Source: Deltaproteobacteria bacterium (lineage in GTDB: Bacteria > Desulfobacterota > WTBG01 > CAIYCZ01 > CAIRTM01). From it: a DNA stretch of 64,000 nucleotides. A model generated the notes under the pieces. That model saw only the letters and a program-made list of their open reading frames with translations. It ran no database searches and had not been told where the DNA came from. Below, piece after piece: positions 1,642-59,811 of the stretch (the first letter of the stretch is position 1; each line of letters starts with the position of its first letter). The position numbers and the translations under genes were made by a program. The stretch covers positions 1-64,000 of the forward strand of contig JAJRXD010000034.1 of assembly GCA_024276465.1 (NCBI GenBank), given 5' to 3'.

Positions 1642-3726
1642 ATGTTTAAAAAACTGCTTCTTATGAGTATAAGCCTTTGTGTATTGATGAGAACCGATCC
1701 CCTGCGTTGTGAAGATTCCTACGAAATCGGCAATGTGGTTGTGAGCGCTGATGAGGAGGAGGTAAACACAGGTTCTGCTGATGCCACCGGGTTTGTCACT
1801 GTCATTATGGTGGATGAACTGCCTTCTCAGGCAATATCAATTCCAGAGGTGCTTGACCAGTCGGTCGGTGTCAACGTAAAACAGTACGGGGGGCTGGGCA
1901 GTTTCAGCACAATCTCAATTCGAGGTTCTTCATCTGAACAGGTTGTCATCTATCTCGACGGTATACTTCTGAACAGGGCAGTTTCAGGAGTTGTGAACCT
2001 GGCTGACATTCCTCTTGACAATGTGGAGAAAATAGAAATATACAGGGGCACCTCTCCTGCGAGATTCGGGGCGTCAGGTATCGGGGGTGTGGTTAATATC
2101 ATTACAAAAAAGGCAAAACATTCCAGTACGTCAAAAATCAACTACACATTCGGATCATTCGAGACCCACAAGGCAAACCTGTTTTTATCCAGGAGGTTTG
2201 AGCGCCTGTACTATACGTTTTTTTATAATCATACGCAGAGCAGGGGAGACTTCAGGTTTAAAGATGACAGGGGAACCCGATATAACAGGGACGATGACAA
2301 CTGGACCCGCAGGCGCAATAATGACTTCCGTTCAAACGATCTGCTCATCAAAGCCGGCTACGAGTTTGATTCCGGATATAAACTCGATGTAAACATGAAC
2401 ATATTCAACAAAAATCAGGGAGTACCCGGAATTGGAAGTTATCAGTCACGGGATTCCCGGCTTAAAACATTCAGAAACCTTTCACATGTTAAGCTGTCCG
2501 GGGATGATCTGTTCATACCGGGACTTTCCGGTGAAGCCCTTTTTTCATACAGTTTTCAGCGGCAGAAATTCAGGGATACCAGGGGTGAGATCGGTTTCGG
2601 CAGACAGGACAACAGGGATGACACTGAAAATTTTTCAGGGCAGCTGCTTTTATCCTATCTGTTAGGGGAGTCACATCTTATAACCATTCTTGCTGAAGCA
2701 ACTGAAGAAACCTTTCAGTCCAGAGACAATCTGTCATCGCTTCAAACCCCGGATTCAATAAACAGAATAGCCTACCTTTACGGGTTTACAGAAAAAATGC
2801 GCAGCCCCCGCAAAACCAGATCAGAAGAGCAGAAAAGATTTGCCTATACCTTCAGTCTTGAAGACGAAATTTATCTTTTTAATGACCGCCTGATGATAAA
2901 TCCTTCGCTCAAGTACAACTACTATGACAATGATTTTAAGGGAATGGTGCCTTTTTCATCTGCTCTGATTTCACCGGGATCAAACACTTCGGAGTCACAG
3001 CTGACACGCAAGATAGGTGCGGTTTTGAATATCATGGAGGCAGTAAAGCTCAAAGGCAATCTGGGCAAGTACTACCGGATACCGAATTTTTACGAGCTTT
3101 TCGGAGACAGGGGTGCAATTGTGGGAAACACGGGCCTGGTGCCTGAAGAGGGAATAAACTGGGATGTTGGATTCTCTGTGAGTGGAAAAACCCCTTCCAT
3201 TTTTTTAAAATCATTCAATCTGGAATATTCCTATTTCAGAAACAGGGTAGATAACCTGATTTTGTTCATTCAGAACTCCCAGCGCACATCAATTGCAATG
3301 AATATTTCAAAGGCAAGTATTGCAGGGCATGAGTTTTTCTGGCGGTTCAGGTTTATCTGGCCAGTAATAATTTCAGGAAACCTTACTATCCAGCATGCAC
3401 GTGACAAAAGCTCAATTGCATACTGGCAAGGTAATACTCTGCCAGGAAGGCCCAAATATGAACTTTTTAACAGGATTGAAGTGTTTACAGGCAGGTACAG
3501 GCTGTTTCATGAAATAGAATTTCTTGATGAAAGCTTTCTTGACAGGGCAAATACAAAAAAGATTGACCGGAGAACAATACAAAATCTGGGCTTGTCCTGG
3601 AGCACTGAAAAGCGCTTTACATTTACTTTGGAGGTTAAGAATTTTTCTGATGAAATGACTGAGGACGTTATAGGCTATCCGCTTCCAGGAAGAAGTTATT
3701 TTTTTACAGTGGATTTATCGTTATGA
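1642..3726 (+). CDS. TonB-dependent outer-membrane receptor, BtuB-like
   Basis: Outer-membrane gated channel that imports a ligand using TonB/ExbBD energy. After the signal sequence there is a TonB-box-like stretch (GNVVVSA) and a plug domain with the conserved SISIRGSSSEQVVIYLDG and EIYRGTSPARFGASGIGGVVNI motifs. The 22-strand-type barrel ends YPLPGRSYFFTVDLSL, close to the BtuB C-terminus except that the last residue is Leu rather than aromatic. The start at ATG 1642 (MFKKLLLMSISL) is preferred over an ATG 60 nt upstream because that ATG lies inside the palindromic repeat; the SD is weak. Clustering with exbB, exbD, tonB and two propeller proteins supports a dedicated uptake system. Cobalamin or another corrinoid is the best substrate guess; a siderophore or porphyrin is possible. 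Confidence 0.88.
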   Translation: MFKKLLLMSISLCVLMRTDPLRCEDSYEIGNVVVSADEEEVNTGSADATGFVTVIMVDELPSQAISIPEVLDQSVGVNVKQYGGLGSFSTISIRGSSSEQVVIYLDGILLNRAVSGVVNLADIPLDNVEKIEIYRGTSPARFGASGIGGVVNIITKKAKHSSTSKINYTFGSFETHKANLFLSRRFERLYYTFFYNHTQSRGDFRFKDDRGTRYNRDDDNWTRRRNNDFRSNDLLIKAGYEFDSGYKLDVNMNIFNKNQGVPGIGSYQSRDSRLKTFRNLSHVKLSGDDLFIPGLSGEALFSYSFQRQKFRDTRGEIGFGRQDNRDDTENFSGQLLLSYLLGESHLITILAEATEETFQSRDNLSSLQTPDSINRIAYLYGFTEKMRSPRKTRSEEQKRFAYTFSLEDEIYLFNDRLMINPSLKYNYYDNDFKGMVPFSSALISPGSNTSESQLTRKIGAVLNIMEAVKLKGNLGKYYRIPNFYELFGDRGAIVGNTGLVPEEGINWDVGFSVSGKTPSIFLKSFNLEYSYFRNRVDNLILFIQNSQRTSIAMNISKASIAGHEFFWRFRFIWPVIISGNLTIQHARDKSSIAYWQGNTLPGRPKYELFNRIEVFTGRYRLFHEIEFLDESFLDRANTKKIDRRTIQNLGLSWSTEKRFTFTLEVKNFSDEMTEDVIGYPLPGRSYFFTVDLSL

Positions 3727-17576: not shown

Positions 17577-18053
17577 ATGAAAAAACTGACCCACTTTGAC
17601 AAATCAGGAAGATCCAGAATGGTGGATGTAAGCGAAAAGAGGGAAACACTTCGTGTGGCCACTGCAACAGCCAGTGTCACCATGAAACCGGAAACATTTC
17701 AAAGGATTATTGACAGAAAAATTGAAAAGGGTGATGTGTTGGGGGTTGCCCGGGTTGGCGGAATCATGGCTGCCAAAAGGACATCTGATTTGATACCAAT
17801 GTGCCATCCTTTAAACATTACATCTGTTTCCCTGGAATTCCTGCCAAAACAGGAGCTCAACCAGATTAAAGTACAAGCCACTGTAAAAATCAAAGGCAGA
17901 ACAGGCGTTGAGATGGAGGCTCTGGTGGCAGTGACAGCAGCAGCACTGACTATTTATGATATGTGCAAGGCTGTTGACCGTGCAATGACCATATCTGATA
18001 TAATGCTTGTCAGAAAAAGCGGGGGGAAAAGTGGCACTTTTGAAAGGGACTAA
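17577..18053 (+). CDS. moaC: Cyclic pyranopterin monophosphate synthase
   Basis: Molybdenum/tungsten cofactor biosynthesis enzyme converting the MoaA product into cyclic pyranopterin monophosphate. The 158-residue protein keeps the MoaC signatures [31 protein letters not shown] (active-site His) and [26 protein letters not shown] (catalytic Asp/Lys). It stands alone without other moa genes nearby. Mo or W enzymes such as formate dehydrogenase would be expected elsewhere in the genome. Confidence 0.94.
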
Positions 18054-18138
18054 CAGCACAGATTTTTTTTTACTCTTAAGATTTATTATGGTAACCTAAT
18101 CTGAGAGATTGAGAGATTTTTCAGATAAAGACAGCATA

Positions 18139-18297
18139 GTGTAACAGCATATCACTCATTCTCAGCAGACATCCATGTCTGCTTCCGAGGTAAGCATTAC
18201 ACTTCACCATCCAGGTGAAGCTTATGTAATGCTTAAATCCGTTCAATGCTGTTACACAAATCCCGACATAGCGGGATTTGTTGCATCATGTTTTTTT
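18139..18297 (+). other. Structured palindromic element (three-way-junction-like) upstream of dksA
   Basis: Outer arms GTGTAACAGCAT (18139-18150) and ATGCTGTTACAC (18246-18257) are a perfect 12-bp inverted repeat. They enclose GCAGACA/TGTCTGC (18165-18171 with 18176-18182, loop TCCA) and a two-part helix, TAAGCATTACA/TGTAATGCTTA (18191-18201 with 18225-18235) capped by CTTCACC/GGTGAAG (18202-18208 with 18214-18220). Immediately after comes CAAATCCCG/CGGGATTTG (18257-18265 with 18272-18280), then a T7 run at 18291-18297. No known RNA family is recognised. It could be an RNA regulator of dksA, a small RNA with its own terminator, or a palindromic mobile repeat. The flanking 18054-18138 shows nothing else. 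Confidence 0.55.
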
Positions 18298-18361
18298 GGA
18301 ATTGCTCAAATTAGGGGTAAGTTAAATGTTTTAGATTCATGTTAAGGGAGGTATCAAAACC

Positions 18362-18724
18362 GTGGACAAAAAAAATCTGACATATTTCAGAACCCTTCTT
18401 AGCAAACGCCTGGAGGAGCTTTTGGATGAAGTTAAAGGCACAGTTGTAGAGATGACTGATGATGATGAAACGTTTCCTGACCCAAGCGACAGGGCAACAC
18501 TTGAATCCGACCGTAATTTTGTTCTCCGTATCAGAGACAGGGAGAGGAGACTGATAACAAAAATAAAAAAGGCTCTTGAGCGTATAGAAGACGGATCTTT
18601 TGGTGTTTGTGAAGAGTGTGGCGAAGACATCTCAGTACGGAGACTGAAAGCCAGACCAGTAACAACTTTATGTATAGATTGCAAGGAGGAACAGGAAAAA
18701 CTGGAAAAGCTCAGGCCTTCATAA
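18362..18724 (+). CDS. dksA: RNA polymerase-binding transcription factor DksA
   Basis: A 120-residue DksA/TraR-family protein. The coiled-coil tip has the DPSDRATLESD block, with D40 and D43 matching the functional acidic tip of E. coli DksA (DPADRA). The zinc finger has four Cys (C83, C86, C104, C107) and the LKARP...LCIDC linker, so this is the zinc-containing type. It is shorter at the N-terminus than the 151-residue E. coli protein. It starts with GTG 18362, 10 nt after AAGGGAGG. It acts with ppGpp on RNA polymerase through the secondary channel. The structured element upstream may regulate it. Confidence 0.9.
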   Translation: MDKKNLTYFRTLLSKRLEELLDEVKGTVVEMTDDDETFPDPSDRATLESDRNFVLRIRDRERRLITKIKKALERIEDGSFGVCEECGEDISVRRLKARPVTTLCIDCKEEQEKLEKLRPS

Positions 18725-59755: not shown

Positions 59756-59811
59756 TGACTTTTTACTGATGACAGGACAATGCTGAATTTATCTGAAAAA
59801 AGACAGAATCC

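Follow-up and report, generated by a model that had tools for sequence, protein, structure and literature searches.

The window, which is the whole 64,000-nt stretch of deltaproteobacterial DNA that was analysed, contains moaC (17577-18053, plus strand; PF01967, 3.4e-58) and, downstream of it, dksA (18362-18724, plus strand; PF21157, 1.3e-26, and PF01258, 9.3e-14). A MITE of 221 bp (18095-18315), with a TIR that begins with CCTAATCTGAGAG and ends with GCTCAAATTAGG, lies between these genes and is flanked by GGTAA target-site duplications at 18090-18094 and 18316-18320, which match at 5/5 positions when the ends are compared. The same element ends are found in ~40 genomic copies and in the core-less copies L042-L051. 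Alignment of the copies places the start of the true unit at CCTAA and its end at TTAGG, making it larger than the 18139-18297 segment in which the structure was originally noticed; the palindromes of that segment form the apex of the MITE. The TIRs are common to dispersed copies and the target-site duplications are of constant length, 5 bp in the genome of the window (G000) and ~8 bp in OS_PC_MetaG.mb.142. The structure was carried into the moaC-dksA interval by this TIR- and duplication-bearing transposon. Elsewhere in the window, a 24-nt sequence (59777-59800) is 87.5% identical to a piece of the left end of the element and is possibly a remnant.

The three-way-junction core

The structure is enclosed by an outer helix, P1, in which 18139-18150 pairs perfectly with 18246-18257 over 12 bp when the window region is folded, and which is preserved on the minus strand as judged from mismatch counts. 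All the parts of the fold that follow are likewise assigned to the minus strand. The first joint, CTCATTCTC (GAGAATGAG on the minus strand; 18155-18163), is invariant, with a per-base conservation of 84-98% in ~195 copies. It leads into hairpin P2 (18164-18183), supported by paired double changes, in which 18164-18171 pairs with 18176-18183 (8 bp) around a loop reading TCCA on the plus and TGGA on the minus strand. P2 is extended by CTC (18161-18163) and GAG (18187-18189) around a TCC bulge, and this bulge and the adjoining GAGG joint (18184-18190) are also invariant, TCC being present in 159 of 186 copies. Hairpin P3 (18191-18235), recognised by folding and covariation, pairs 18191-18208 with 18214-18235 in 11 + 7 bp with a 4-nt bulge, CTTA, and is followed by the third joint AATCCGTTCA (18236-18245), the CCG of which is invariant in an alignment of 28 sequences. 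The core is thus ~130 nt long, with three helices and the motif CTCATTCTC..TCCGAGG..CCG. The paired helices that the original prediction had described as perfect and unlikely to arise by chance are all present, with a minimum free energy of -66 kcal/mol, compared to -36.9 +/- 3.8 kcal/mol in shuffled sequences (z -7.7; 0/200 shuffles as stable as the window fold).

An additional hairpin with an immediately adjacent T7 run had also been described, and this description holds in part. The hairpin, AATCCCG..CGGGATT, is present at about 18257-18280, on neither strand in particular, but it is absent from about half of the copies, and the T7 run (18291-18297, plus strand) begins ~10 nt past it and therefore does not form a canonical terminator. 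Copy alignment and the terminator search identify the run as part of the right end of the MITE. No terminator or sigma-70 promoter consensus was found in the promoter and terminator search of the moaC-dksA copy which, with the dispensable distal hairpin and the displaced T7 run, speaks against a terminator-ended small RNA. The statement that no known RNA family is recognisable is borne out, as Rfam yielded no gathering-level match within the window and, at the E-value threshold, just weak unrelated matches, including one near the element.

Dispersal of the element and its core

A search across the source genome, as had been proposed, returned 42 matches in G000, nearly all at separate places, and the suggestion of a structured mobile repeat proved right, given these dispersed places, the TIRs and the 5-bp target duplications. 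Where both ends could be recognised, in 28 G000 copies, the duplications match at 109 of 140 positions, mostly at 5/5 per copy. Many G000 contigs start or end within a copy (L011, L012, L015, L016, L020, L022, L025 and L026), so that the true copy number is uncertain. The alternative suggestion of a cis-regulatory RNA leader of dksA fails on the ground which the original prediction had itself laid down, the existence of many copies at unrelated loci; judged from where the copies lie, the element is not a conserved leader of dksA orthologues, and the strand on which folding is maintained is not the one transcribed with dksA. As the other copies adjoin unrelated genes, dksA represents an insertion site rather than a regulated partner, and an effect of the element on dksA, if any, would be incidental.

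There are 35 left-end (TIR) matches in G000, and the ten core-less ones examined are short elements, with shells down to ~70 bp. An identical clean junction, CACTCATTCAATG, from which the core is absent, occurs in two core-less shells, L048 and L050, and may reflect either precise excision or deletion between TTC repeats. Another palindromic repeat, ACCCCCCTTTCATCCCCCC..GGGGGGAAAGAGGGGGGT, which is rich in G+C, sits within the P3 apex of the G000 copies L038, L039 and L046 and is also found inside the core-less shells L042, L045, L047 and L051. In L033 of the same genome the CCCGACACAGCGGG hairpin sequence lies on the other side of the core, which suggests that the core has been inverted by way of the P1 arms.

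BLAST comparison with 58 relatives detected the core only in G024, which has 26 copies whose outer arms differ from one another yet still pair. A scan of 84,980 species genomes with a degenerate pattern, which itself demanded CATCC in P2, located 40 loci in Thermodesulfovibrio, other Nitrospirota, Omnitrophota and unclassified bacteria. Using a covariance model, the core was found in 11 of the 395 genomes of the window's phylum, with a lone, weak match in G001, and in 55 of the 296 genomes of the phylum of Thermodesulfovibrio (Nitrospirota group). Many of these carriers have at least 8 or at least 11 copies among the matches listed, and 34 matches are present in the closed genome G205. The core therefore occurs in at least three bacterial groups and is typically multi-copy within a genome. 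It was not found in plasmid and phage records, nor in viral contigs with a stricter pattern. A loose pattern gave 116 matches in viral contigs, and the 80 checked with the covariance model were chance matches.

The core rides in several unrelated MITE shells. The G000 shell has the ends CCTAAGCTGAGCG and 5-bp duplications, while in OS_PC_MetaG.mb.142 the core lies within a ~194-bp element with the ends GTAACTATTCA and ~8-bp target duplications, a combination of GTAA ends and 8-bp duplications that may resemble that of IS66. Yet other ends are found in the Omnitrophota and several Nitrospirota copies, and the copies of G517 and G519 have no obvious shell. The outer flanks of shell-less copies are copy-specific which, together with the lack of promoter or terminator at the moaC-dksA copy, argues against a self-contained transcription unit.

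Constraint, folding strand and genomic context

Both the helices and the joints of the core are constrained. There is almost no variation in the joints CTCATTCTC, TCC-GAGG and CCG, and in P2 and P3 15 of the 21 pairs include changes on both sides among 28 sequences. Both sides of a single P2 pair are changed in up to 16 of the 28 sequences, with no G-U intermediates. The P1 pairs of G517 and G519 switch among all four Watson-Crick types, and comparison of orthologous sites in three genomes shows double changes in the P1 arms that preserve pairing. In orthologous copies of G517, G519 and G468 the core is 93-97% identical, compared to 53-83% in the adjacent sequence.

The constrained fold is that of the minus strand. 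Read on the minus as opposed to the plus strand, the mismatches in P1 comprise 91 versus 30 G.U, 28 versus 6 U.U and 12 versus 1 G.G, when each non-Watson-Crick combination is counted once per genome and position. By genome, the bias favours the minus strand in 20, the plus strand in two and neither in five (p=1.2e-4), a tally in which related genomes and inherited mismatches are partly non-independent and which concerns mismatches that RNA and ssDNA both tolerate. The mismatches in P2 and P3 run in the same minus-strand direction (7:2 and 18:6, respectively). The helix imperfections are thus of the kind that a minus-strand fold tolerates, so that the strand bearing the structure is complementary to the one originally read. 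The bias is seen in both orientations of the copies relative to genes (51:17, and 23:11 in antisense-oriented copies, p=0.06), making transcription of the host genes an unlikely cause.

Among 110 copies situated between co-directional genes, as delimited with our own ORF caller, the plus strand is the sense strand in 82 and the antisense strand in 28 (p=2.5e-7), and the median distances of copies between tandem genes to their two neighbours are 43 and 57 nt. In G205, which is a closed genome, the 34 matches show no replication-strand bias, unlike what lagging-strand ssDNA transposition predicts. No recurrent neighbour gene family was found, the search yielding just small heterogeneous clusters that were not identified as transposases. 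A Y1 (RAYT/IS200) transposase was considered as a partner and rejected, being absent from five of 22 carriers, including G024 with its 26 copies; the Y1 genes of G000 are not flanked by the element.

A single nuo operon of L118 (Thermodesulfovibrionales Yes70-02) holds two copies, at 3462 and 5920, which seem to lie in the nuoJ-nuoK and nuoL-nuoM intervals (gene names from reading of the translations); G491 and G519 have the element at the same positions. At these two sites the element keeps its place across species while P2 and P3 differ and core identity is 60-67%. The copies there resemble the other copies of their own genome, suggesting homogenisation or replacement between copies. Shell-less copies were also compared with candidate empty sites. 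At one intergenic site, shared by L309 (G517) and L400 (G519), the flanks are 84-86% identical and the elements are opposite in orientation, with different P1 and P3 sequences, which may represent site turnover or repeated insertion.

Interpretation and relation to known systems

The explanation we prefer, with slightly less than even confidence, is that a non-autonomous MITE inserted between moaC and dksA, with a widespread three-way-junction core as a passenger at its apex, and that this core folds on the minus strand and is recognised in trans. The minus strand would fold as a single-stranded nucleic acid, most likely DNA exposed in replication or transposition, and its junction would be recognised by a putative enzyme supplied in trans, which may allow the core to spread and to be homogenised between copies. 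We lean towards DNA because transcription signals are lacking at the copy examined, the outer flanks of shell-less copies are copy-specific and the minus strand mostly lies antisense to the adjacent genes. Several observations weigh against this explanation: neither an enzyme nor a recurrent neighbour family was found, Y1 is missing from 5/22 carriers, replication-strand bias is lacking in G205, and both core-less junctions could trace back to a single deletion between TTC repeats and subsequent transposition. Moreover, RNA explains the excess of U.U over A.A no less well than DNA does, and the orientation of the copies follows gene direction (82:28), which points to transcription. According to the main and serious rival, transcription of the minus strand yields a structured three-way-junction RNA with a function of its own, in mobilisation, as a decoy that binds a protein or as antisense RNA after processing. 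The tolerance of G.U, U.U and G.G follows the mismatch hierarchy of RNA, and the invariant single-stranded joints and the conservation of the core in place are in keeping with such a transcript; nevertheless, the window copy has no promoter or terminator, 82 of the 110 tandem gene pairs have the minus strand in antisense and no Rfam family corresponds, and we consider this RNA possible but somewhat unlikely.

Orientation and proximity to genes (plus strand sense in 82/110 tandem cases, medians of 43 and 57 nt), together with retention across species in nuo operons and at other sites, could also point to a plus-strand cis-acting mRNA element, such as an intercistronic stabiliser or a processing or read-through site, spread through operons by the MITE and acting here on the moaC-dksA transcript. 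This is improbable, as A.C, A.A and C.C mismatches accumulate on the plus strand, the opposite of what selection for a plus-strand fold would produce, the same trend is seen, more weakly, in antisense-oriented copies (23:11, p=0.06), and the element is not linked to particular genes. A selfish, unconstrained MITE, whose arms are kept alike by template-switch repair alone and whose core is conserved through recent spread, would account for the multiple copies with target-site duplications and for the P2 double changes without intermediates. It is disfavoured, and its probability slim, since orthologous cores are far better conserved (93-97%) than nearby sequence (53-83%), the non-palindromic joints are invariant across phyla and template switching predicts no strand-specific mismatch bias. 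The least probable explanation is a CsrA sponge, in which GGA motifs presented by the minus-strand hairpin loops and bulge would be putative binding sites. Most copies have GGA both in the P2 loop and in the bulge, and csrA was found in 14 of the 16 carriers tested, but the scan pattern itself demanded CATCC in P2, the P2-loop GGA is present in just half of the G024 copies, the P3-loop GGA is missing in G517 and G519, the joint GGA is not conserved and csrA was not found in G400, a carrier of at least 11 copies. As GGA is conserved only in the P2 loop and bulge, a sponge is considered very unlikely.

As a tentative proposal, the core may represent a kind of mobile structured nucleic acid that has not been described before: a minus-strand three-way junction that travels separately from its unrelated shells, or passes from one to another, across phyla and is kept in place by selection or homing conversion. 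No description of the core was found in the open-access literature searched, and one may exist elsewhere, for example in supplementary lists. That a conserved fold recurs in at least three groups, in transposons whose ends and duplications differ, implies that either a mobile module rides on other mobile elements or many hosts maintain a structured nucleic acid. The analysis yields an invariant motif, a covariance model and a directly testable strand prediction, and cautions that multi-copy palindromes upstream of genes can pass for gene-specific riboregulators.

An outer closing helix around hairpins is also the layout of retron msr-msd and HEARO/omega RNAs, and HEARO, which is included in Rfam, often occurs without a protein gene. 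Here, however, there is no recurrent adjacent gene and HEARO was not matched in the Rfam search. The REP/BIME/REPIN repeats associated with RAYT (GTAG and CGTC REPs) are also hairpins repeated outside genes, in which conserved motifs stay unpaired, and some of their families have no dedicated transposase, but REPs are single hairpins of 20-40 bp, as opposed to a three-helix unit of ~130 nt (PMC3733652). A REP/RAYT assignment was rejected on this ground, and because the core has no invariant GTAG or CGTC tag and the Y1 distribution does not fit. The MRSC-65-2 motif, with thousands of dispersed copies and a covarying stem that possibly acts as DNA, is a single long stem bearing a UYCCGG repeat according to its description (PMC11109978) and was set aside on that basis, the core having three helices and other invariant joints. 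As a mobile element, the unit belongs with the MITEs. It shares with MITEs and with small mobile palindromes such as ERIC and RU (PMC10969869, PMC2229807, PMC2759123) a length of ~200 bp, TIRs, target-site duplications, an intergenic location, the lack of an ORF, a strong palindromic fold and dozens of copies. It differs from these elements in its apex, a sequence-conserved asymmetric three-way junction common to phyla and to shells of differing TIR and target-site duplication length, and in its minus-strand structural signature.
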